Assembly (NCBI GenBank): GCA_946406115.1
Contig: OX291557.1
Coordinates: forward strand, 14,416,501 to 14,480,500
Direction: 5' to 3'
From: Apoda limacodes
Lineage: Eukaryota; Arthropoda; Insecta; Lepidoptera; Limacodidae
DNA length: 64,000 bases
Numbering within the stretch: position 1 is the stretch's first letter; each line of letters starts with the position of its first letter. A program made the position numbers and the translations under genes. Below the pieces are notes generated by a model. That model saw only the letters and a program-made list of their open reading frames with translations. It did not search any database and was not told the DNA's origin. Shown here piece after piece: positions 6,506 through 53,599 of the stretch.

Positions 6506-7357
6506 CGAGGGCGGGATGATAAGTAACTAGCCTAATAATAAAACACTTAACTTTCCGTGATAAAATTAATTTTATTTTTCGACATAGTCTCCGTGAACCT
6601 CTACGCACTTACAGCCATGGCTTTTTTAGAGCCGGGCATCCCGATTGAGTCCACTGCTTTAATTGAATCTTTGATGCTGGCGTGTAATAATGAACCCTTT
6701 TTTCATCTGTTGTTAAAAATAGACCTAAAAAATTGGCCTTATTACTCTGAAAACGGGCCAGACATTCTTTTAAGTTTTGCACCCGAATCCTTTTTTGATC
6801 GTGCGTAAGCAATCGCAGCACCCAACGGGCCGATAACTTTTTCATATTTAATTCCTCACTTAGGATATGATGTACCCGTTCTTTCGAAATACCTGTGGTG
6901 TCAGCCATTTCAGATAACTTCAATCGTCGATCTGCTAAAACCATATCATGTACTTTCACGACCATTTCCGGACTCGTGACGCTTTTTGGACGTCCGGGGC
7001 GGGCTTCATCTTGGACACATGTACGACCGCATTTGAACTCAGTCACCCAGTTTTTTAATGTGGCATAAGAAGGGGCACATTTACCCAAAACATTCTTTAA
7101 CTCGTCATAGATATCTTTCCCCTTCATGCCCTTCATATGAAGAAACTTTATCACCGCTCTTTGTTCAATTTTATCCATTTTAAAAACAGTTGACGAAATA
7201 TATTTTCAAATGACAAAAAAACAATAAAATTTTCACGCCACCAAATTCAAATTTAGAACACAGGTGGCCAGAGATACGAATTTAAAAACGACATATATAT
7301 TTTTTTAATGTTAACTTTTTAAATAGCTGTGGCTAGTTACTTATCATCCCGCCCACG
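6506..7357 (-). mobile_element. mariner element with internal deletion, complete ends
   Basis: Terminal inverted repeats of 27 bp (6506-6532 and 7331-7357; 26 of 27 positions pair) are flanked by TA on both sides (6504-6505 and 7358-7359), the target duplication expected of the mariner/Tc1 superfamily. The element is 852 bp, against about 1.3 kb for intact mariners. The missing part removes the C-terminal catalytic half of the transposase. The intact ends suggest it could still be moved by a transposase supplied elsewhere. Confidence 0.9.
6609..7178 (-). pseudogene. truncated mariner transposase (N-terminal half)
   Basis: The 189-residue frame starts MDKIEQRAVIKFLHMKG, a typical mariner N-terminus. 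It keeps both helix-turn-helix segments of the DNA-binding region (about residues 1-115), including the linker ARPGRPKS at about 59-66. It then has the WVLRLL/HDQKR stretch and LTTDEKRVHYY at about residue 155, where the first catalytic Asp sits. After CPALKKPWL it stops, so the second and third acidic residues (full-length about 345 residues) are missing. No internal stop or frameshift interrupts the retained part. It cannot cut DNA but could in principle still bind its own terminal repeats. Confidence 0.88.
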
Positions 7358-13895: not shown

Positions 13896-14059
13896 ACCAC
13901 TACGGTTGGTCAACCGCTGAAGTACATCACACACATTCATGTATTCTAGTCATTGACAATCAAGGGACCAGCACATGCATAGTTGATCTCTGTTGCTTGG
14001 AAAACAAAAAGTATCATTTGTTGAAGAAAGTCGTGACAAAGTGTGTCTAAAATTAAGAC
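13896..14059 (+). repeat. repeat shared, inverted, with 22728-22893
   Basis: About 165 bp here ('caatcaagggaccagcacat', 'tgttgcttggaaaacaaaaa', 'gacaaagtgtgtctaaaatt') match the minus strand at 22728-22893 at high identity. The copies are inverted and bracket the 15.4-22.6 kb palindrome. Here the segment runs directly into the Crypton remnant; the origin of the repeat itself is unclear. Confidence 0.75.
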
Positions 14060-14064
14060 TAAAA

Positions 14065-15240: not shown

Positions 15241-15373
15241 TTGATTTAGATTTGGATAGGTAATTTATGTTATTAAAAAATTTAGCAAACAAGGTTTTTG
15301 CGGTTTTTCTTTGCACCACTTTTACATCAAAAAATTCCTCTCTCTAAAAACGGTATAGAAGTAGAGGGGATTT

Positions 15374-15840
15374 GTTGGTTCTGGCGCACTTCCCTCCAAC
15401 CTCAACCCCTCGCCTAAAAAAAGCTCACCAACTTTTCTGCCCCCGCACGACTCGCGCTTGACCACTCTTAAAACATCGTTGGTTCTGGCTCACTACCCTC
15501 CAACCCCAACCCCTCGCCTAAAAACTTTTCTGCCCCCGCACGACTCGCGCTTGACCACTCTCAAAACCACCCCTGTGTCTGGGGTGTGGCGACTCGCGCT
15601 TGACCACTCTCAAAACATCGTTGGTTCTGGCTCACTACCCTCCAACCCCAACCCCTCTCCTAAAAACTTTTCTGCCCCGCACGACTCGCGCTTGGCCACT
15701 CTCAAAACCACCCCTGTGTCTGGGGTGTGGCGACTCGCGCTTGACCACTCTCAAAACCACCCCTGTGTCTGGGGCTATGTCGACTCACGCAACCAACCCC
15801 TGTGTCTGGGGCTATGTCGACTCACGCTTGACCAAAACTA
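15374..15840 (+). repeat. terminal minisatellite, left arm
   Basis: A ~95-bp unit ('ggttctggctcactaccctc' to 'cttttctgcccccgcacgac') occurs three times from 15374, 15478 and 15618. A ~48-bp unit ('cgcgcttgaccactctcaaa' plus 'cccctgtgtctggggtgtgg') is interspersed and ends in the variants 'ggggctatgtcgactcacgc'. The array is C-rich on this strand. The Pro/Thr/Leu-rich frames at 15458-15883 and 15600-15848 are translations of the repeat, not genes. Confidence 0.85.
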
Positions 15841-16372
15841 CTGCGTGACGTCACAGTGGCTCCTGTGTATAACTTGTCTCTAGTTTTGTTATGTAATTAC
15901 ATCATTATCGTAATGGGTTATCATGTTTTTCCCCGTTCATAATAAAGTTATTCCTATTTAATTACAATGATGTTGGTTGGTGGTGACATTCCAAAAACTA
16001 GTCCCCCGAGGGTGTATCTCAAGGTTTTAGGGGTGTGTCCACTCACGCTTTACAAAAACAACCTGGAGACGTGTCGGTTCACGCTTGATATGACTTGACA
16101 TGTTATACCTACAGAAAATCTTCAATTCAAGTCGGTCGAAGTTTAAAGAGAAAAGCTGATAATAGTGTTAAAGATTTACAACTAGCATTGACGTCATCAT
16201 GATGTGTCAAATATGTGATTTACAGGTTAAGCAAAGATTCTATGCTCAGCACTTACGATCTAAGAAACACAAATAGAAATGTCTTATTCTTAATCATAAT
16301 TTACTTTATGTGTCTGTTATATCACTCGTGAAGTATTTATAGCATCAATTGAAGAATCAATACTATTTTATT

Positions 16373-18450
16373 ATTCATGCAGATTTTGATCAGGAAACAA
16401 AAGATTTAAAAAATTCTTTTGAATTTTTAAATTTGACTATTAGGAATTGGATAAAAAATGGTGAATTAGAAAATTATTCAGAACCTTTAAGTGATGACAT
16501 TAAAAATAAAATGTGTAATGACACATAGTGATTTAGAAAAAAAAAGAAAATGTAGACCTTAAAAAAAAAAAAAAAACAGTTTTTAGAAATCCATGTTAAT
16601 AAGTTTAATCCCTCACGGGGATCTTCGTATATTCGTAAAAAAGAACGATCAACAATGTTTTAAGAGGACTATATCCTGCAAATACACATTCCGATAGGGT
16701 ATCATCATACTTGAGGCATTAAAATAAACTAACGTTTAATAATATTCAGTTCCCAATCAAATTATCTGATATACCCAAGGTAGAAAAACAAAATGACATT
16801 AGCATTAATATGTTTGAATTAGAGTTTAACAAAGAAAAAAAAACTTTACAAAATGTTCTAATTAATTACAAATTAACTTATTATTTTTAAACAACGGTTG
16901 AAATGGTCATTATTGTATTTAATAAACAAATAACAAATTGAAATGACACTATTCATATCTGGGCCGGTTGCCGTAACTATTTTTAATCTAAAGTTAATTT
17001 AATTAATCACCAGAAACATGAATGTGCTCAAATTTTTACTGAATAACTAGGAATTCATAAAAAAAAAAAATATTGGTTTAATAGGGAAACAAATAATGAT
17101 GAAATCTATTTTGATAAATTTCAAAGAATATTAAAATTACATTTTATAATATATGCAGACTTTGTAGCTCATTTAAAACCCTCCTATTGTCACCTATTGT
17201 GTCCCTGATCCATCGAAGTCATATACGTAAACAATACATGAACATGTAGTTTGTTCTTATGGATAATATATAAAATGTTCATATGATGATAAACTGTCTA
17301 TATACAGAACATACTCAGAGCCTAATTGTACAAAAATGTTTATGGAAAGCATTAACAAAGATATTAGCAATATACATAGGATAAATTGTTTTCAAAAATG
17401 TCCACTTTCTTTAACTAATGAAGAGAAGGAATCTATAAGAAAATCGCAATTATGTTATATTAGGTGATGAAATCACAGTAGACTATGACTGGAATACTAG
17501 TAATTTTAGAGGTGTTAGTCACGAATTATTTAGTAGCACAAAGTATCGTGTTCCATTTTTCATTCCTATTCTATTTCACAATCTAAACAATTATGATGCT
17601 CATTTTATTGTTCATGCTTTGAATTTTAAAGATTGAGAAATAAAAATAATTCCGCAAAATAAGTAAAAATATAATTCATTCTCATGTAAACCTAATATGT
17701 CGTATAGTTCATTTGCGGTTTTTAGATTATTTTTAATTTATGATCTACTAGAGTTTAGATATATAGAATATTATATAAAGACCAATTTGCAGAATTAAGA
17801 AATCAATTACAAACGAATTTTAATAAACTTATTAGGAAAGGTGTTTTTCTTCATGAATTTGTTAATTCTTATGAGTCCTTAAAAATTACATCTCTTCCAA
17901 ATCAAGACGCTTTCTTTAACTCTTAAATACCAGTGTATCAAATTATAATTACAAACATGCTCAAAACGATGTCAGCAACTTATGTAATGCTACTCACTGA
18001 TATTTCTGATAACTTAAGAATTTTTTTATCTAATGTGATATAATTGTAATTATTTATTTTCTTCTTTTTACACTAAGCTGTACACCTATCTATAATATAT
18101 TTTTGCCACGGAAAATGAGCTCTATTTTAAAATTAACCTGTAACCTTAAGTACCCTGAACATTTAGATGATCTTAATTCAGATTTACCTTTATGCCCTGA
18201 AAAACATTGTAAACGATTACAGTAAAGATAAGAAATTAGTATCAAAGTTTTATAATAAAACTAAAATATAATTTACTATAGAAATCTCAAACAATGTTTA
18301 CAACTTACTATGAAGTTAATTAGGGTTCATAGAGTTTTACAGTTTAAGCATAGTCCTTAGTTGAAATATATATAGATTTAAATACACAAGTAAGAACTAC
18401 AGCTAAAAGTGACTGAAAAAGATTTTTATAAATAATACATTCTTTGGTAA
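16373..18450 (+). pseudogene. decayed protein-primed DNA polymerase B, left arm
   Basis: Broken by many stops and frameshifts, the plus strand still reads polymerase landmarks in order. They are IIYADFVAHLKP (about 17149-17184, Exo I region, with Val where the catalytic Glu is expected), FHNLNNYDAHF (about 17575-17607, Exo II), LKYPEHLDDLNSDLPLCPE (about 18140-18200), KLIRVHRVLQF (about 18310-18345) and NTFFGK (about 18435-18452, the polymerase motif-B neighbourhood). The arm breaks at this last motif. About 60 bases around the segment encoding NMLEYSNLYL are deleted near 17960; the right arm and the centre keep them. The family replicates linear DNA from a terminal protein; this copy is dead. 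Confidence 0.75.
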
Positions 18451-19480
18451 AATATGGAAAATGTTGAAAAACGTGTATTTGTGAAAAAAAGATATTTATT
18501 TGGAGAATTATAAGTCGTGTCTATGTATCACAAATGTAAATAGTTCACGTGCAGAATTCGAAGTGTGAAACATACTATTTTACACAAAAAATTAAAAAAA
18601 ATTTGTTGTAGACTTTTAGTTCTCCAAATAAATCTCTTTTTTTGTCACACTTTTCTTGAAAACTTTAGATTCGGCAATTACTTTAAAGATTGAGAAATAA
18701 AAATAATTCCGCAAAATAAGTAAAAATATATTTCATTCTCAAATAAACCTAATATGTCGTATAGTTCATTTGCGGTTTTTAGATTATTTTTAATTTATGA
18801 TCTACTAGAGTTTAGATATATAGAATATTATATAAAGACCAATTTGCAGAAATAAGAAATCAATTACAAACGAATTTTAATAAACTTATTAGGAAAGGTG
18901 TTTTTCTTCATGAATTTGTTATGTCAGCTCAATTTAAATGTAAAAATATGTTGGAATATTCCAATCTATATTTAAGAACTTATGTAATGCTACTCACTGA
19001 TATTTCTGATAACTTTAGAATTTGTTATATCTAATGTGATATAATTGTTATTATTTAGTTCTCCAAATAAATCTCTTTTTTTTGTCTCACTTTTTTGAAA
19101 TCTTTAGATTCGGCAATTACTTCAAGCAATTATAAGTCTACAACAAGTTTTATTAATTTTTGAGAATTCTGTAGGACTCTCGAAATACTTGTTACGATTT
19201 TGTATATTGGAAATATAAAAATTTTGATGTATAACTTTCATTATTATACCATGCACAAAAAAATAAGATAATAGTGTCAAGTTATAATACCCTGATACGG
19301 GTAGCTTCGTTTAATATGTATTTACAGATAATTTTTATAATGATGTAAAATCTGACTTAGATTTTTTTTTCGATACTTCAGACTATCCTAATGATAACAT
19401 TTATGGTTACTTTATAATTAAACTTTAATAAAACGAAACTTGCGTATTACAATGGTGAAGTATTTCGAGAGTCTACAGAC
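18451..19480 (+). pseudogene. palindrome centre: third polymerase copy and motif C
   Basis: A 66-70 bp direct repeat ('ctccaaataaatctcttttt' to 'gattcggcaattactt', 18619-18684 and 19058-19124) flanks a plus-strand copy (18685-19055) of the arm segment at 17628-18053. This copy has an internal deletion but keeps NMLEYSNLYLR. Beyond it, 19288-19400 reads YPDTGSF and then DNFYNDVKSDLD and DTSDYPNDNIYG. This matches the region of polymerase motif C (DTDS in active enzymes), here DTGS with the second catalytic Asp lost. This part is single-copy, so the centre continues the left-arm gene. Confidence 0.65.
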
Positions 19481-21612
19481 TTACCAAAGAATGTATTATT
19501 TATAAAAATCTTTTTCAGTCACTTTTAGCTGTAGTTCTTACTTGTGTATTTAAATCTATATATATTTCAACTAAGGACTATGCTTAAACTGTAAAACTCT
19601 ATGAACCCTAATTAACTTCATAGTAAGTTGTAAACATTGTTTGAGATTTCTATAGTAAATTATATTTTAGTTTTATTATAAAACTTTGATACTAATTTCT
19701 TATCTTTACTGTAATCGTTTACAATGTTTTTCAGGGCATAAAGGTAAATCTGAATTAAGATCATCTAAATGTTCAGGGTACTTAAGGTTACAGGTTAATT
19801 TTAAAATAGAGCTCATTTTCCGTGGCAAAAATATATTATAGATAGGTGTACAGCTTAGTGTAAAAAGAAGAAAATAAATAATTACAATTATATCACATTA
19901 GATATAAAAATTCTAAAGTTATCAGAAATATCAGTGAGTAGCATTACATAAGTTCTTAAATATAGATTGGAATATTCCAACATATTTTTACATTTAAATT
20001 GGGCTGACATCGTTTTGAGCATGTTTGTAATTTGAATTTGATACACTGGTATTTAAGAGTTAAAGAAAGCGTCTTGATTTGGAAGAGATGTAATTTTTAA
20101 GGACTCATAAGAATTAACAAATTCATGAAGAAAAACACCTTTCCTAATAAGTTTATTAAAATTCGTTTGTAATTGATTTCTTAATTCTGCAAATTGGTCT
20201 TTATATAATATTCTATATATCTAAACTCTAGTAGATCATAAATTAAAAATAATCTAAAAACCGCAAATGAACTATACGACATATTAGGTTTACATGAGAA
20301 TGAATTATATTTTTACTTATTTTGCGGAATTATTTTTATTTCTCAATCTTTAAAATTCAAAGCATGAACAATAAAATGAGCATCATAATTGTTTAGATTG
20401 TGAAATAGAATAGGAATGAAAAATGGAACACGATACTTTGTGCTACTAAATAATTCGTGACTAACACCTCTAAAATTACTAGTATTCCAGTCATAGTCTA
20501 CTGTGATTTCATCACCTAATATAACATAATTGCGATTTTCTTATAGATTCCTTCTCTTCATTAGTTAAAGAAAGTGGACATTTTTGAAAACAATTTATCC
20601 TATGTATATTGCTAATATCTTTGTTAATGCTTTCCATAAACATTTTTGTACAATTAGGCTCTGAGTATGTTCTGTATATAGACAGTTTATCATCATATGA
20701 ACATTTTATATATTATCCATAAGAACAAACTACATGTTCATGTATTGTTTACGTATATGACTTCGATGGATCAGGGACACAATAGGTGACAATAGGAGGG
20801 TTTTAAATGAGCTACAAAGTCTGCATATATTATAAAATGTAATTTTAATATTCTTTGAAATTTATCAAAATAGATTTCATCATTATTTGTTTCCCTATTA
20901 AACCAATATTTTTCTTTTTTATGAATTCCTAGTTATTCAGTAAAAATTTGAGCACATTCATGTTTCTGGTGATTAATTAAATTAACTTTAGATTAAAAAT
21001 AGTTACGGCAACCGGCCCAGATATGAATAGTGTCATTTCAATTTGTTATTTGTTTATTTACCAAGCGTGATAAATACAATAATGACCATTTCAACCGTTG
21101 TTTAAAAATAATAAGTTAATTTGTAATTAATTAGAACATTTTGTAAAGTTTTTTTTTCTTTGTTAAACTCTAATTCAAACATATTAATGCTAATGTCATT
21201 TTGTTTTTCTACCTTGGGTATATCAGATAATTTGATTGGGAACTGAATATTATTAAACGTTAGTTTATTTTAATGCCTCAAGTATGATGATACCCTATCG
21301 GAATGTGTATTTGCAGGATATAGTCCTCTTAAAACATTGTTGATCGTTCTTTTTTACGAATATACGAAGATCCCCGTGAGGGATTAAACTTATTAACATG
21401 GATTTCTAAAAACTGTTTTTTTTTTTTTTTTAAGGTCTACATTTTCTTTTTTTTTCTAAATCACTATGTGTCATTACACATTTTATTTTTAATGTCATCA
21501 CTTAAAGGTTCTGAATAATTTTCTAATTCACCATTTTTTATCCAATTCCTAATAGTCAAATTTAAAAATTCAAAAGAATTTTTTAAATCTTTTGTTTCCT
21601 GATCAAAATCTG
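19481..21612 (-). pseudogene. decayed protein-primed DNA polymerase B, right arm
   Basis: Minus-strand mirror of the left-arm remnant. It carries the same Exo I, Exo II and downstream landmarks, plus the KNMLEYSNLYLR segment (about 19960-20010) that the left arm has lost. Homology to the left arm ends at 19481, within the same NTFFGK codons where the left arm ends, so the junction lies inside the polymerase gene. Confidence 0.72.
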
Positions 21613-22140
21613 CATGAATAATAAAATAGTATTGATTCTTCAATTGATGCTATAAATACTTCACGAGTGATATAACAGACACATAAAGTAAATTATGATT
21701 AAGAATAAGACATTTCTATTTGTGTTTCTTAGATCGTAAGTGCTGAGCATAGAATCTTTGCTTAACCTGTAAATCACATATTTGACACATCATGATGACG
21801 TCAATGCTAGTTGTAAATCTTTAACACTATTATCAGCTTTTCTCTTTAAACTTCGACCGACTTGAATTGAAGATTTTCTGTAGGTATAACATGTCAAGTC
21901 ATATCAAGCGTGAACCGACACGTCTCCAGGTTGTTTTTGTAAAGCGTGAGTGGACATACCCCTAAAACCTTGAGATACACCCTCGGGGGACTAGTTTTTG
22001 GAATGTCACCACCAACCAACATCATTGTAATTAAATAGGAATAACTTTATTATGAACGGGGAAAAACATGATAACCCATTACGATAATGATGTAATTACA
22101 TAACAAAACTAGAGACAAGTTATACACAGGAGCCACTGTG

Positions 22141-22607
22141 ACGTCACGCAGTAGTTTTGGTCAAGCGTGAGTCGACATAGCCCCAGACACAGGGGTTGGT
22201 TGCGTGAGTCGACATAGCCCCAGACACAGGGGTGGTTTTGAGAGTGGTCAAGCGCGAGTCGCCACACCCCAGACACAGGGGTGGTTTTGAGAGTGGCCAA
22301 GCGCGAGTCGTGCGGGGCAGAAAAGTTTTTAGGAGAGGGGTTGGGGTTGGAGGGTAGTGAGCCAGAACCAACGATGTTTTGAGAGTGGTCAAGCGCGAGT
22401 CGCCACACCCCAGACACAGGGGTGGTTTTGAGAGTGGTCAAGCGCGAGTCGTGCGGGGGCAGAAAAGTTTTTAGGCGAGGGGTTGGGGTTGGAGGGTAGT
22501 GAGCCAGAACCAACGATGTTTTAAGAGTGGTCAAGCGCGAGTCGTGCGGGGGCAGAAAAGTTTTTAGGCGAGGGGTTGAGGTTGGAGGGTAGTGCGCCAG
22601 AACCAAC
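22141..22607 (-). repeat. terminal minisatellite, right arm
   Basis: Inverted copy of the array at 15374-15840, with the same unit order. It lacks an 11-12 bp insertion ('aagctcaccaa') present near 15420 in the left arm. Frames at 22109-22606 and 22144-22392 (minus) are repeat translations. Confidence 0.85.
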
Positions 22608-22727
22608 GACTAACAACCTTTTACAGAGATGAAGTATCTACGCTTTTCTATGTTGTTTAAACCAAATTTCTTGGACCCAGAATCTCGTTAATCTCAGAAC
22701 TGAACGTCACTGGAGAAGTCGACACCT

Positions 22728-22893
22728 ACGTAGTTTTAATTTTAGACACACTTTGTCACGAATTTCTTCAACAAATTATACTTTTTGTTTTCCAAGCAAC
22801 AGACATCAAGTATGCATGTGCTGGTCCCTTGATTGTCAGTGACTATAATCCATGGGTGTGTGTAATGTACTTCAACGGTTGAGCAACCATGGA
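22728..22893 (-). repeat. inverted partner of 13896-14059
   Basis: The minus strand matches the repeat next to the 14-kb Crypton fragment, but here it continues into unrelated sequence ('ctacgtaggtgtcgacttct') with no Crypton coding. It lies 120 bp outside the right end of the palindrome. Confidence 0.7.
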
Positions 22894-22973: not shown

Positions 22974-24640
22974 GGCTGGGTTGCACCAACTTACTATAAC
23001 GATAACAAAAGACCGACGGCTTGTCAAATCCTCGGTTAAGGAAAAAATGGAGTGCACCATTTGACAATTGTTAAAATACGTCATAACTTTAACGTTAACA
23101 TTGTTAGGCTGGGTTGGTCCAACTAACTATAACGATAACAAAAGGCCGACGGCTTGTCAAATCCTCGGTTAAGCAAAAAACTGAGTGCACCATCTGACAA
23201 TTGTTGAAATACGTCATAACTTTAACGTTAACAATAACCAGCCGAAAATTACTGGTTATAGTTAAAGTTACAGTTGACAAGCCGCTAAATTATCATAAAA
23301 TGAGGTTATTTTTGTGAAATACAACCAATTTGAATTACCTGGTGTTTTTAATATTATGTAGGTAGCATTGCAGTAATTTTGTATTCCTCTGCACCACGTC
23401 ATTTTTGCGTAAAAAAATTTTTAATGGATGAAGATGCATCCCCTTATACCCAAATGGAATCGTTTTTGTAACCGTTACAATTCACCAATTTGGGTTGCAC
23501 CGTCCGACAAGTTGTCAATGCTATTGTTACGTGTTTTGCTAGGATAAAGGACTTGAATCCACGCCTTTCACAATGAATAAAAAAATATTGTGCGAAGCTG
23601 CCAAAGCATAGCCAGAACAGAACAGTCCTTAAATCTGTAAATTATGAATCAATGTAGATTGGCAGTAATCGTGAGAACAGACAAGGAAGGTGCCATATGT
23701 AACTAAGCGTGCATGATTAGTGCAGCTATATTGTACTATGTTGATATTTTCATTGGAAAACAAGAAATAAATCTATACTGAAATAGTAGTGCTATGTTAG
23801 GTTATGTTTTTCTCCTCCGAGTGGAGCGAGGGCAGCCCACAGAGGGGTGTGTTGAATACATACCAAGCAATTTTTTTAAAAAAATAATATATAAATTGTT
23901 AAAATACGTCATAACTTTAACGTTAACAATGTAAGGCTGGGTTGGTCCAACTAGCTATAACGATAACAAAAGGCCGACGGCTTGTCAAATCCTCGGTTAA
24001 GCAAAAAATGGAGTGCACCATCTGACAATTGTTGAAATACGTCATAACTTTAACGTTAACAATAACCAGCCTAAAATTACTGCTTATAGTTAAAGTTAAA
24101 AGAGCCTTACATTGTTAACGTTAAAGTTATGACGTATTTTAACAATTTATATATTATTTTTTTTAAAAAATTGCTTGGTATGTATTAAACACACCCCTCT
24201 GTGGGCTGCCCTCGCTCCACTCGGAGGAGAAAAACATAAACTAACATAGCACTAGTATTTCAGTATAGATTTATTTCTTGTTTTCCAATAAAAACATCAA
24301 CATAGTTACAATATAGCTGTACTAATCATGCACGCTTAGTTACATATGGCACCTTCCTTGTCTGTTCTCACGATGACTGCCAATCTACATTGATTTATAA
24401 TTAACAGATTTAAGGACTGTTCTGTTCTGGCTATGCTTTGGCAGCTTCGCACAATATTTTTTTATTCATTGTGAAAGGCGTGGCTTCAAGTCCTTTATCC
24501 TAGCAAAACACGTAACAATAGCATTGACAACTTGTCGGACGGTGCAACCCAAATTGGTGAATTGTAACGGTTAAAGTTAAAGTAATTGTTGAAGTTATTT
24601 TTGACAATAATTTTAACAGACGTTTTCGTGCAATCCAGCC
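22974..24640. mobile_element. composite element with GGCTGGGTTGCACC-type ends
   Basis: The left end GGCTGGGTTGCACC (22974) pairs with GTGCAATCCAGCC (ending 24640). Inside are three ~133-bp units starting at 22974, 23107 and 23935, each with 'actataacgataacaaaag', 'ccgacggcttgtcaaatcct' and 'catctgacaattgttg'. There is also a palindrome with 470-bp arms (23469-23938 and 24103-24573). No transposase was recognised. This looks like a DNA transposon or MITE that has grown by nested insertion and inversion. Confidence 0.6.
23469..24573. repeat. 470-bp-arm palindrome
   Basis: Arms 23469-23938 and 24103-24573 are inverted copies with scattered mismatches. Both outer ends carry 'ttcaccaatttgggttgcac' or its complement, and both inner ends carry 'ttaacgttaacaatgtaagg'. 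The 164-bp spacer is the third 133-bp unit. No open frame is shared by both arms; the minus frame at 24500-24697 is incidental. Confidence 0.85.
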
Positions 24641-33274: not shown

Positions 33275-33303
33275 ATGCAGATATCTTAATGTTAAAAGTT
33301 TAA
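33275..33303 (+). promoter_or_regulatory. two overlapping micro upstream ORFs
   Basis: Within the predicted leader of gene C, ATG at 33275 opens MQIS-stop (TAA 33287-33289). The last base of that stop is the A of a second ATG (33289-33291) opening MLKV-stop (TAA 33301-33303). Such uORFs usually lower translation of the main frame or make it conditional. Both lie about 120-150 bp before the chosen main start. Confidence 0.55.
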
Positions 33304-33422
33304 GTTATAGATTGCAATCAGCTAACAAGCTGTTAAACAGTGAGCAACACAGCGAAAAAATTGCAATCACCAGTCACGAACTGTCAACTGAGCTACAAAA
33401 GAAAATAAAAAGAAAATTCATC

Positions 33423-33902
33423 ATGAATCATGGAATAGAAACTGTGGCTCATACGATGCCAACACGAAAAAGGGTCTCCAGTGTTTCTAACCTAGAAAGT
33501 TTTAAGAATACAGACTCCATAACCAGCACAAGGAGTGACGAGTGTATTGCCTGTCAAACGGAGCCTTTAGATCCTTCTTCAGGATCCCGTAGTGACTCCA
33601 GCAATAACAATTCCGAACGTAGCCGTCATCGATTGAAGTCTATTTTGACCTTTAACAAGGTTTTTCAGCTATTTAACATCACTAAACGTTCGCAATCATG
33701 TTCCGCTGCAGAGCGTCGCAAACCCAAAGAAAAGAAACAGCCGAAGAGTATACTCCGACCTCCAGTCACATACATCTATCTGAAAGGACCATCTGGTCTA
33801 CCGACTTACCGAGTACCTCGATCCGCAATCAATCAACCATATTCGATTTCAACCAGAAATGTTATTACGGGAAGAAATCGATACGCGGTAAGATTTTACT
33901 AG
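33423..33902 (+). CDS. basic, Ser-rich protein of unknown function (gene C)
   Basis: A 159-residue frame starts at ATG 33423, the third ATG after the promoter. The frame is open upstream to 33312 but without an ATG. The protein has no signal peptide or membrane segment. It is Ser/Asn-rich in the middle (PSSGSRSDSSNNNSERSRH, about 53-71) and basic at about 95-118 (KRSQSCSAAERRKPKEKKQ). Then comes a more conserved-looking tail: KSILRPPVTYIYLKGPSGLP (about 117-136), TYRVPRSAI and NVITGRNRYAVRFY. An AATAAA at 33913-33918, only 11 bp after the stop, is unusually close. A GTAAGA donor lies at 33888, exactly between codons after ...NRYA, so the mRNA may be spliced there instead and continue elsewhere. 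The tail and promoter make it a real gene; I do not recognise the family. Confidence 0.7.
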   Translation: MNHGIETVAHTMPTRKRVSSVSNLESFKNTDSITSTRSDECIACQTEPLDPSSGSRSDSSNNNSERSRHRLKSILTFNKVFQLFNITKRSQSCSAAERRKPKEKKQPKSILRPPVTYIYLKGPSGLPTYRVPRSAINQPYSISTRNVITGRNRYAVRFY

Positions 33903-46113: not shown

Positions 46114-47641
46114 CCTATCTGTTGTAAGTGTGCTACCTACTGCCTCATTAAATGAAACTCATACATATTTTACAAATGTTGGCAAAGATCTTGTTGGTCT
46201 AATACTTAATAAGCTAGGAGTTAGTAATGAAGATTTGGTGCGTAACGCAAAAGCAGTAAGAACTCCCACAAATTCGATGATGTTCACCCCTACTGATGCC
46301 ACAGAAATACGAAATGTTATTCTAACCCTAAGAACTGCTAGTGCCCCAGGTTGTGACAAAATAACGGCGAACTTTTTAAAATCTTTCGGTAATTACTTGG
46401 CTGAACCCATAGCGTATCTTTATAACTTGAGTTTGAGTTCTGGAATTTTCCCAGACCAATTCAAAACTGCTGTTGTCTGCCCAATCTACAAAGCGGGTGA
46501 TAGGGGCCAGCCAAGCAATTACAGACCTATTTCGCTACTCCTAACCATTTCCAAAGTGCTCGAGAGAAAATAACAAACTACCTAGAGAAGTCCAAGTTTA
46601 TTAACAACAATCAGTATGGTTTTAGGCAAGGAAGGTCTACAGAAGATGCTGTACTTCAACTCACCTCTATGATCACAAAGTATCAAGATGATGGAGTAAG
46701 ATCTGTTGGTGTTTTTTTGGACCTTCAAAAAGCATTCGATACGGTCTCCATTCCCATACTGCTCAAACGTCTGGAAAATATTGTTGTTAGGGGTACGGTA
46801 CACTCTTGGATTGAAAACTATTTAACAAACAGATACCAGATTGTGAAGGTGGAGAACAACTATAGTCAGAAAGTAATATGTAGTTATGGAGTCCCACAAG
46901 GAAGCACGCTTGGACCCACTCTGTTTTTGATTTATACAACAGTATTTGTGACATAAAAATCAGTGGATCTAACATGCTGATGTTTGCAGACGACAGTGTG
47001 GTAGTTTTTCACGCCAAGACATGGAACGAAGTTAAGCGGCTTACTGAAGAAGGACGCTCTAACATAACCTCGTGGCTTGAAGATGATCTCTTAACTCTAA
47101 ACACCATGAAAACAAACTACCTATGCTTCATCAAAACTGCTGTCACCAACCCTAAGAACTTCAGCATAATAATACACGCGTACCCTTGCAACAGGCATCC
47201 ACACTGCAATACATGCAAATGTGTAACACTCAGTAGGACCACGGTAACTAAATATCTTAGAGTTACTGTTGATGATAAACTACAATGGAGTAATCACATC
47301 ACTACCCTCGCGGTCAGAACGCGTAAACTGATACACGTTTTTAAAAATCTTAGTAATCTCTCATTCTTACATATTATGCTACTTCATGGGGTGGAGCTGC
47401 AAAATCTTATACCATAGAAATTGGTTTACCAATTCGTCATCCCACTGTGTCACTCTACAAAGTGGCAGAAGTTTTGTCTTTATGCAAGTTGTATATCATA
47501 CAAACTCTGTGTAAATATCACAGAGTAACTACACCCACTTTAAAAAATACCTCCAAACGTATAAAACGGTGCCCGGTTCCAAATACTAAAACTGAATTTG
47601 CTCGCAGGCAATATGAACATCTCGCTCCGACAATACAATAA
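46114..47641 (+). pseudogene. LINE reverse transcriptase (CR1/Jockey group)
   Basis: Three successive frames carry a nearly continuous reverse transcriptase. 46130-46573 holds LRTASAPGCDKI, FPDQFKTAVVCPIYKAGD and NYRPISLLLTISKVLE. 46580-46956 holds YGFRQGRSTEDAV, VFLDLQKAFDTV and GVPQGSTLGPTLFLIY. 46974-47417 holds FADDSVVVF, with both catalytic Asp retained, and the thumb region LTLNTMKTNYLCF. Frameshifts lie near 46570, 46945 and 47420, and the C-terminal text continues at 47447-47641. The endonuclease part is absent, so the copy is 5' truncated as usual for LINEs. The KAFDTVS/VPQGS wording recalls Daphne-like Jockey-superfamily elements, but the clade is not certain. Confidence 0.85.
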
Positions 47642-50174: not shown

Positions 50175-50820
50175 AGACTGGAGTGGTAGATCCCAAGACT
50201 AGCCAGGAACCACCAGACCAATTTGGTTTTGGAAGATATAGTCCACTGGAATTAATAGGTTTTGAGTTGCCGAACATGTTCACTTTTTTTATGTGCTACG
50301 TGGATGACATACAAGTACGTATATCTTTCATTTGATCCTCAGGGCACTGACAGTGCACTTGCCAAAATTAACCAATATCTACATAGCACTGCATTATGGT
50401 CAGAGGCAAATATACTTAATCTTATTCCATTTAAATCTAAATATATGGTGCTGGGGTCCAAATAGCAGATAGACTATATATGTAACAAAAGCCTTGACGT
50501 AAGTATTCTTGGAAAACAGGTTGAGCGTGTAACGGAGGTCCCTAATCTGGGCGTACTGATGGATAACAGGCTTCGTATTGATTGCCACATTCTCGAGATC
50601 GCACGAAACTGCTTTTACAGATTCAAATTCTTTACCGAGTACTTGATTATCTGAGTGAGGCACTACGCACACTGCTGTGTGACTCACTTATTCTATTAAA
50701 GCTGAGCTATGCAAAAGTCGTAGATTGTCCCAGTCTGCTGGCAAAAACCGAACTTACAGTGCAAAGGGTACAAAATGCGTGTGCAAGGTTCATTTTTAAC
50801 ATTACCCCCGTACTTATATA
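50175..50820 (+). pseudogene. LINE reverse transcriptase fragment
   Basis: The plus strand carries the second half of a LINE reverse transcriptase. YVDDIQ (about 50299-50316) replaces YADD at the catalytic site. It is followed by DSALAKINQYLHSTALWSEA, NLIPFKSKYMVLGSK, and later YRVLDYLSEALRTLLCDSL and VQRVQNACARFIFNI (to about 50808). Frameshifts separate these parts. It belongs to a different LINE from the one at 46114. It is cut off at 50820, exactly where the 463-bp duplicated unit starts. Confidence 0.75.
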
Positions 50821-51746
50821 AGCCTTTATTTAAATAGCTCAAATATTTGGAAAATGTCACTTTGTAGAGAATTACACTTAGCTGCGCTGACATACCTCAC
50901 ATTATGACCTCTCTGCATAATTTGAGCGACGTGTTTTGCAGCATAAGCTGAGTCGGCGACCATATCAGGATCTATACAATATATTACACGCGTATATATT
51001 ACAAATCTGACATTATTTAGCAAAGCAAAAAGCCAATATCGATCGGATTTTTTTTTAAATCAAAAATAAATTTTGCAAATCACATGGTAGTTCCTAAATA
51101 TTTTGCGATCAAAGTTAAAAGTAAAAATACATAGTGTCACACTACGGTGGTTTGCATAAGAGAGCTGTAAAATTTTGCCAGAATCAATGCAATGTGACAT
51201 GACGTACAGATCGACGGAATGATAAAACTATAAGGATTCCGCATTTGTCATTTGGCTAAAGAACCCTAAAACGATTTTAAAAAAGCCTTTATTTAAATAG
51301 CTCAAATATTTGGAAAATGTCACTTTGTAGAGAATTACACTTAGCTGCGCTGACATACCTCACATTATGACCTCTCTGCATAATTTGAGCGACGTGTTTT
51401 GCAGCATAAGCTGAGTCGGCGACCATATCAGGATCTATACAATATATTACACGCGTATATATTACAAATCTGACATTATTTAGCAAAGCAAAAAGCCAAT
51501 ATCGATCGGATTTTTTTTTAAATCAAAAATAAATTTTGCAAATCACATGGTAGTTCCTAAATATTTTGCGATCAAAGTTAAAAGTAAAAATACATAGTGT
51601 CACACTACGGTGGTTTGCATAAGAGAGCTGTAAAATTTTGCCAGAATCAATGCAATGTGACATGACGTACAGATCGACGGAATGATAAAACTATAAGGAT
51701 TCCGCATTTGTCATTTGGCTAAAGAACCCTAAAACGATTTTAAAAA
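50821..51746 (+). repeat. perfect 463-bp tandem duplication
   Basis: Units 50821-51283 and 51284-51746 appear identical base for base. Each ends with 'tataaggattccgcatttgt' and 'aagaaccctaaaac', the 3' end of the repeat family at 28025-28680. Each unit holds the same 65-codon minus frame (MLNNVRFVIYTRVIYC...), which is not a recognised gene. The lack of any difference contrasts with all other duplications in the window. Confidence 0.9.
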
Positions 51747-53599
51747 ATCTTACAAACCACACCTCACCGTGAATTAAACTTTCCTTTTTAATGATATTTT
51801 TTACCCCCATATTTTTTATTAAAACGAAAAATCTGTGTCAACATTTTTGGGTACAAAATTATGTACACATTTACGAAATAAATTTAATAAATACCAGCGA
51901 TGCTGCCTTATTTAAAAAGAAATAAAACTAATTAAGTATTTTTCATTGCTGAAAACACAATATTTTTCTCAAAGTATTTCCATTTATATAAAACCGGAAA
52001 ATAGGAATTTTATAAACTACTTAAAATATTTTGACACTTCGTTTATCAATTTCACAGATTTCAGATAACTACTGGTATTTATAAGTAGCATACGGTAGTA
52101 GACGGTATGAATTAAAATATAAATTAGTTTAACATTTACTTCAAACATATATTATGTATTAAACAAGACGGTACCTATTTATAATATTTTTTACTTCAAT
52201 TTTAATATCGTAGCTGTCTTTAAAACATGAATAGATGACTCATTCCCTTAACATTTTATTGTGTTTGATAACCGAAATGCAAAAAACTTAGTACTGAAGA
52301 GCCACCCATTAAAAAAACTTATTTTACTAGTAGGTACTAGTGAATGGACTTTTCCAATTTAATATGAGTATACGTACAAAAACTAGTAATTATATAATCG
52401 CAATTAACACTTTTATTATGCTTCAAATCATATTATCTGCATAAACGCTGAATTAAGGAGTTATTAAGGTTTTTGAAATATAAGAAGGAGAAAACTCGTC
52501 GCTAATAAATTACAGTGCCAGAAACTTTTGTGACCTTCTGATCTATGCTGTTTGGTCACTAGTGTCTGCGTAAGTTCACACCATTTCAATATGGTGGATT
52601 TTCTATTATAAGTACTTTTTCAAACATACAAAAACTGTAACGGGTCTTTGCCCTGGTACCTAAAGAATTTTAAGCCGTATCGTTTAATAAATTATCATGC
52701 ATATACTTATGCCTAACCGCTGCTGATTTTTTTCCATGTCTAATTGATAATTGACAAAATATATAAAATAACGCAAAATTCATGCAAATAGTAGATACAA
52801 AGGGGTTATGGTGTTTGTTTTCGTGTACAAAAATATACACTTTTAAATTACTAATGTTTGTCCTTTATTATTATTTTTTCTTTTCTAGCCTTCTTCTTGA
52901 AGAAAGAGGTGAATCGAAGAATGCAACTTGGCTAGACATAGTATTTTGGAAATCTTTACGTCCAATTAAAAGTATACAATTAGTGTTTGTTGTCAGCAAT
53001 GACTTACGTAGAGAAACGTTTTAAAAACCTGCCAAATTTTACTTACATGTATTATACCGTCTCGGTTGTGTTTTTAAATAATTTTTATTCCTGACAGGAT
53101 GGCTAACGTTGTAAGACATTTTTAATGCCACCCTCCTCATTGGCTTGTTGGGGTAAAGCCTAGGGTGATTTGGGCCACAGTCCACAAGCGAGCAGAGTGC
53201 ATATTTGAGGTGTGAATAAACAATGTACTTGTAAATTAAGAAAAATAGTCACTGCTACCTACACGCCAGGTTTGAACCTCCGCCACTCAGCAAACAAGGT
53301 GAAATCGGAACCCCTGAGCCACCACCAGCATCAGCCATGTCACCTATAACTACAAAACTAAAAAAGTTTAGGGAGAAGAGAGGAAGCTTTGACAGTTACA
53401 TCCTAACTAGTCAGTCGGTTACAGTATGACCTAATCTAAATCATTGGTCTCTCGTACTATTAACGAACTATGGAAAAAACTATGCTAGGCGTTGCTTAAC
53501 GCGATGAATGAACCGAAGTCAGAGAACCACACAGAGATTCAATTGTTAAAAATAATATTATAGAGGAAATTACTTGTCAGTGACGACCACGATCTAGGG
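51747..53599. other. intergenic with repeat fragment
   Basis: AT-rich, no gene supported. About 53125-53330 ('ttgggccacagtccacaagc', 'gccaggtttgaacctccgcc') is a fragment of the family at 25480. The 80-codon frame at 52782-53024 lacks context. Confidence 0.45.

Follow-up and report, generated by a model that had tools for sequence, protein, structure and literature searches.

In the present study, we analysed a stretch of 64,000 nucleotides (nt) from the lepidopteran Apoda limacodes (assembly GCA_946406115.1, contig OX291557.1, positions 14,416,501 to 14,480,500 of the forward strand), called the window below, and in it a palindromic element that resembles the transposons known as Polintons or Mavericks at its ends and contains a heavily broken gene. 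The original prediction, made from the letters of this stretch, had described a 7.2-kb palindrome built from two inverted arms of about 3.1 kb, and alignment confirmed it, the segments 15374-18450 (3,077 nt) and 19481-22607 (3,127 nt) being mutually inverted copies. The features of the locus, in positions of the window, are the following.

15354 to 15359, no strand: left target-site duplication of 6 base pairs (bp), TATAGA, placed by comparison with the family terminus; only 5 of its 6 letters recur on the right
15360 to 15373, + strand: true left terminus, AGTAGAGGGGATTT, the outer end common to other copies
15374 to 15827, + strand: left terminal tandem repeats
15360 to 18450, + strand: left palindrome arm, from the inverted-repeat alignment
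16203 to 18513, + strand: putative broken polymerase-B-like remnant of the left arm, from reading frames and assigned by motif order only
17047-17205, 17267-17464, 17439-17633, 17759-17923 and 18274-18357, + strand: pieces of the remnant in the left arm
18451 to 19480, no strand: asymmetric centre (loop)
18615 to 18683, + strand: direct repeat to the left of the third arm copy, 93-94% identical to 19054-19122
18682 to 19060, + strand: third copy of the arm segment 17625-18059, internally deleted
19054 to 19122, + strand: direct repeat to the right of the third arm copy, 93-94% identical to 18615-18683
19282 to 19416, + strand: putative remnant piece past the arm end, in the direction of the left arm (DTGS, then FDTSDYP), its translation read by eye
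19481 to 22609, - strand: right palindrome arm with the mirrored remnant and tandem repeats
22610 to 22621, - strand: right terminus in altered form, its 12 nt not resembling the family end, as read from the sequence, the terminus search having found none on the right
22622 to 22627, no strand: TACAGA, seen by eye, 5 of 6 letters as in the left TATAGA, at the site expected for the duplication if the length of the terminus is unchanged; a chance match is possible

In global alignment the two arms gave 3,059 matches, 7 substitutions and 3 gaps (13, 48 and 11 nt), in agreement with the predicted substitutions and at least three indels, and their local identity amounted to 98.9% across 2,616 nt and 99.6% across 474 nt. 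The outer ~450 nt of each arm consist of tandem repeats (periods 37, 49 and 142 on the left; 37, 48, 49, 93 and 142 on the right), which bears out the minisatellite foreseen at both ends, and inward of these repeats a broken gene survives as short open stretches, mirrored on both arms. The centre of the palindrome, 1,030 nt long and asymmetric, holds a third partial copy of the arm, bracketed by direct repeats of ~70 bp, together with + strand pieces that, read by eye, seem to continue the gene of the left arm; a plain two-arm structure was rejected. The outer limits first proposed needed correction on the left. Comparison with other copies showed the family terminus to be AGTAGAGGGGATTC or ..ATTT, 14 bp outside the predicted start at 15374, and thus placed the left terminus of the window copy (AGTAGAGGGG...) at 15360; for this reason a target-site duplication at 15374/22607 was rejected as well. 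The left end of the window copy is intact, and its right end is altered across 12 nt.

The genome holding the window comprises 800,300,627 bases in 31 contigs, and searches of it revealed that the window palindrome belongs to a family of Polinton-like derivatives that is young, numerous and devoid of a working gene. At least 85 matches were obtained with a 1.5-kb arm query (best 40 of 1511 candidates scored), at least 40 matches over the full length (99-100%) plus a shorter one with a loop query (best 40 of 561 scored), and at least 150 identical matches with a piece of 65 amino acids (aa; best 150 of 1291 scored). These identical 65-aa sites group into 91 loci, which are spread over 25 of the 31 contigs (contigs counted by hand). 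Where neighbouring sites in the 91 sampled loci lay less than 10 kb apart, they stood in the order '+-' 54 times, '-+' never, '++' twice and '--' three times, that is, 54 pairs faced inward, none outward and 5 in the same direction. A single site was present at 36 of the 91 loci, and these loci are not thereby shown to be without a second arm, since identical sites alone were listed.

We then read 29 loci (the window, L048-L072, L076, L077, and L078 with L079 counted as one), and 28 of them turned out to be head-to-head fold-backs, the exception being L069, whose second arm is reduced to ~0.3 kb. Thirteen of the first 25 loci had been chosen because the arm query showed both arms; among the loci chosen with one arm showing, 11 of 12 were nevertheless fold-backs, and so were L076 and L077, taken from single 65-aa sites, with arms of ~0.9 and 1.8 kb. 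Because the palindrome filters drop copies that run through their own centre, the verdict on L058, L062, L063 and L068 came from how they map to the window. Other palindromic copies with the same outer ends, which the original prediction had proposed to look for, were thus plentiful (28 of the 29 loci read); the full-length parent that it had proposed to seek in the genome did not appear, no non-palindromic, full-length element with the same ends being found among the loci read.

How these palindromes came to their sites can be read from their flanks. An exact 6-bp target-site duplication encloses 11 of the 12 loci at which both ends were located (26 loci examined; the left end of L071 was set by hand, its first base being changed), against 0 of 132 crossed end pairs. 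Therefore, the palindromes integrate into chromosomes as whole units. Like Polintons, the family possesses terminal inverted repeats and, judged by motifs, may carry a polymerase-B-like gene beside one end. It also shares with them the 6-bp duplication and ends of the AG/AGT type, as described for vertebrate Mavericks with 6-bp duplications and (AG)3 or (AGT)2 ends (excerpt of PMC8097293). The end AGTAGAGGGG reads AGTAGA, of AGT type yet not (AGT)2 to the letter, and the window copy itself displays the duplication at its left end only, with 5 of 6 letters on the right by eye. These agreements uphold the predicted Polinton-type nature of the palindrome, and the ends and duplications form a line to the Polintons that is independent of any polymerase label. 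Unlike Polintons and Mavericks, which measure 15-20 kb (excerpt of PMC4046053), the family copies have matched spans of 4.2-9.1 kb, their inverted repeats fill nearly the whole element, and the gene is broken in every arm read. Outside the tandem repeats of the window element no frame exceeds 72 aa, and no integrase, capsid, protease or ATPase frame was seen there. The family is a Polinton derivative, not a complete Polinton.

That Polinton-type elements have integrated in this genome is indicated by a second element, an insertion of 17,379 bp on contig C16 (C16:21683801-21701179), which splits one palindromic copy (L078:4502-6001 and L079:1-2180) and which has AGTAG ends, a 6-bp duplication and a Pox_A32-type frame. 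The insertion, read at its ends and over 0.9 kb of its interior, starts with AGTAGG and ends with CCTACT, is flanked on both sides by TCAGAT, and bears inverted repeats of at least 258 bp (~98%) with tandem units of their own. A frame of 241 aa matches Pox_A32 (ATPase) at 27.4 bits (cut-off 22.8); a search with this frame gave no match, and the 0.9-kb interior piece contained no frame of 60 aa or more. Furthermore, TTCTGGCxCACT stands at 19 nt from the end in both the C16 insertion and the palindromic family. The insertion arrived after the palindromic copy was in place. Two sites on C16, 21 kb apart, had been taken up as a candidate for the full-length parent, and this candidate was rejected, the pair being one palindromic copy split by the 17.4-kb insertion.

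As for the broken gene, the order of its motifs makes a polymerase B likely: a zinc-finger-like start, HNLNNYDAHFI at ~17577, DTGS at ~19294 and then FDTSDYP, which we take to be those of a protein-primed polymerase B, a label that database searches left unconfirmed. The protein-primed DNA polymerase B predicted for the arms thus found no significant database match. In Pfam, 10 pieces searched at E values up to 1 yielded two matches, both to unrelated families and no better than chance; a search of 5 pieces at E up to 10 yielded none, and 16202-16264 gave weak matches of zinc-finger type (best E 0.041). One piece searched against PDB reached E 0.98 with an unrelated enzyme, phage searches of the remnant pieces gave E 2 or worse, and viral-contig searches of these pieces gave no match. 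Pattern scans of viral contigs returned no credible relative among the frames examined and the matches listed, the best E (0.0004) belonging to the tandem repeat. Open frames are short throughout: the longest within 15860-17620 have 66, 61 and 60 aa on both window arms, and none exceeds 83 aa in any of 41 arm sequences (1.5-1.8 kb compared), as befits the non-autonomous element that had been predicted. With no long open frame in the arms read, the family would need a helper for its mobility.

The paired arms keep a record of what happened to the family afterwards. Over 1.76 kb of single-copy arm (800 comparisons, gaps uncounted), the mean divergence of arms was 0.16% within a copy against 0.40% between copies, in a set of 21 loci (the window and L048-L067) with 20 arm pairs, L062 having one arm, and with L068-L072 and L076-L079 outside the set. 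The left and right arms of a copy were sisters in 17 of the 20 pairs, and none of 10,000 re-pairings of arms reached a mean as low as that observed within copies. Within the alignment columns in which 36 or more of 40 letters were present, we counted 74 variants private to one copy, 27 of them present in both arms and 47 in one, as well as 8 variants common to several copies, whose 27 occurrences were in both arms 21 times and in one arm 6 times. At L077, an identical insertion and an identical deletion occur in both arms. Divergence being lower within than between copies, with sister arms and with private variants common to both arms, one arm has repeatedly been rewritten from the other; had the palindrome only ever been replicated faithfully in linear form, its arms would instead make up two old lineages. 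Since no arm frame exceeds 83 aa although the mean difference between copies is just 0.40%, the gene was already dead when the family began to spread. With a mutation rate of ~2.9e-9 per site and generation, that of butterflies, these divergences translate into ~0.3 million generations from the last time the two arms matched and ~0.7 million for the family.

The centres, too, differ among copies. By our own count, the junction 18450|19480 is present at 17 of 26 loci (the window and L048-L072), and the other 9 are without it, including L050, with arms of 3.8 kb, and L051, where the centre of the palindrome is itself palindromic. L057, L058, L068 and L069 have their junction near 18755-18770, and L076 joins a long first arm to a second arm of ~0.9 kb. 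At L062, one side has nothing left of the terminus but its outermost 10-14 bp, joined to internal sequence, yet the duplication is exact. With such differing centres, fold-back or recombination continued during the spread of the family. The end arrays vary in length among copies and between arms. At L054 (1-607 and 8131-8701) the palindrome extends into a flanking satellite with a period of ~63 bp, inverted on both sides (98.9% over 1 kb), and the family terminus was found at neither end.

All this gave rise to the explanation that we favour with modest confidence, namely that these are recently amplified, non-autonomous palindromic derivatives of a Polinton, with a fold-back founder, a helper acting in trans, integration as units and rewriting of arm from arm. 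In the founder Polinton, DNA synthesis that had set out from one terminus may have changed template on its way inward and returned to where it began, so that the middle and the opposite end were lost and a gene fragment with its terminus came to stand on each side of a loop, one set inverted relative to the other; we infer, in other words, a snap-back origin during protein-primed replication. At each end such a palindrome would have an origin of replication and a site for the integrase, and it would lack any functional gene; a helper Polinton would supply polymerase, terminal protein and integrase in trans, upon which the palindrome would enter the chromosome as a unit and give rise to the 6-bp duplication. 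Rewriting would follow most simply if a displaced single strand folded into a hairpin and was copied arm against arm, and new fold-back points may have kept arising, leaving copies with different centres. A bolder version, which we hold to be possible rather than probable, is that a Polinton lineage has settled into lasting 'endogenous defective genomes', which would pass through a hairpin in each cycle, be rebuilt from one arm, exploit the protein-primed replication and the integrase of a helper and throw off new fold-back variants.

Several observations speak against the favoured explanation. The difference in end-array length has a median of 98 nt within copies (11 copies) against 154.5 for crossed pairs, so that either slippage in the arrays is rapid or the ends often escape rewriting. 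The 47 of 74 private variants confined to one arm, and the 3 of 20 arm pairs that are not sisters (L057, L061 and L063), point the same way, and L051 has both ends located yet no duplication. No significant profile match identifies the remnant as polymerase B. A PHROG match to 'DNA polymerase' for 17469-17633 (E 0.073) vanished for 17439-17633, 10 residues longer (none at E up to 1), and a 'polymerase' match for 18816-19031 had E 0.13; these are at noise level, since the former was lost on lengthening the piece and a head protein scored comparably with another piece (E 0.084). A search of the own genome for PF03175 found 0, as it did for all 14 controls, and is void for that reason. The terminal likeness between the C16 insertion and the family is modest, 50 of 5,000 shuffles reaching the local score somewhere in 60 nt, and no helper with the family's ends was found among the loci read. 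Finally, the palindromy that reaches into the flanking satellite argues for a chromosomal event at L054.

Among the alternatives, the best survivor, which we nevertheless regard as unlikely, keeps the same Polinton-mobilised family and has the arms formed and kept alike by chromosomal gene conversion, or by gap repair in which one terminal repeat primes on the other, in place of folding during protein-primed replication. It would accommodate the end arrays that are unequal within copies and the palindromic flanks of L054, and the third arm copy and repeated segments resemble products of recombination. However, the copies are young (0.40% between copies), so that conversion would have had to act at each locus within a short time, variants common to several copies are mostly in both arms (21 against 6 occurrences), and centres differ among copies that have exact duplications (L050, L062 and L068).

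Far less probable is an ordinary cut-and-paste transposon with long inverted repeats, of Foldback, Galileo or Mutator type, in which a fragment resembling polymerase would be there by chance. Galileo, of the P-element superfamily, is a multi-copy element with very long, internally repetitive inverted repeats (excerpt of PMC3573991), and such repeats, typical of Foldback and Galileo in the excerpted literature, link the Galileo, Foldback and Tetris elements of Drosophila with our family. The polymerase assignment, unproven by profile, leaves room for this explanation. Unlike Galileo, however, the family has exact 6-bp duplications and AGTAG ends that fit Polintons and Mavericks, and the Polinton-type element on C16 likewise has AGTAG and TTCTGGCxCACT at 19 nt. 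Mutator/Foldback and P-superfamily elements make duplications longer than 6 bp, whereas those of the family are of 6 bp, and no frame in the window copy has the length of a superfamily transposase. The idea that the window palindrome arose in assembly, or by one inverted duplication in place, deserves hardly any credence: long palindromes are known to give rise to false inversions, but 7 substitutions and 3 indels separate the arms, and many loci on different contigs have target-site duplications of their own as well as arm variants private to them, so that both a read artefact, already thought improbable in the original prediction, and an in-place duplication for the whole family were rejected.

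If the bolder version holds, the family would be an integrated, heritable counterpart of the defective genomes that linear viruses form by snap-back or copy-back, in which one end is mirrored round a unique loop and which are multiplied by a helper. The latter are products of infection, whereas the family is chromosomal, occupies many loci and has integrase-type duplications. Bidnaviruses combine a Polinton-derived polymerase B with terminal inverted repeats (excerpt of PMC4061559); long frames that might encode a helicase or a capsid protein are, by comparison, absent from the window copy. In the open-access literature, among the titles and abstract openings listed and with most subscription journals outside this scope, nothing was found on palindromic or fold-back Polintons. 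Families with long inverted repeats, such as Foldback and Galileo, are already known; what is new here is a palindromic family of Polinton type. Polinton replication is mostly a model, and a large set of young, datable palindromes, in which junctions, end arrays and arm pairs can all be read, offers a natural record of it. The family can serve to test for a hairpin intermediate and for the amount of terminal sequence that a helper needs; L062 suggests that 10-14 bp of terminus may suffice on one side, unless the remainder was lost later.

Additionally, the window contains several features besides the element. Adjoining it, at 23066-24573, lies a further fold-back repeat with arms of ~471 nt (23469-23938 and 24103-24573, 97%) and 133-bp tandem units outside them, and a 158-nt inverted repeat (13904-14061 and 22731-22888, 92%) flanks the element, perhaps as two copies of a dispersed host repeat. 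A 463-bp unit is present in near-perfect tandem duplication at 50820-51747. Among the reading frames, we noted a helix-turn-helix frame at 6609-7205, whose below-cut-off matches include the Mos1 (mariner) helix-turn-helix model, a reverse transcriptase (RVT_1) frame at 46504-46953 and a DUF4797 frame at 33276-33899.

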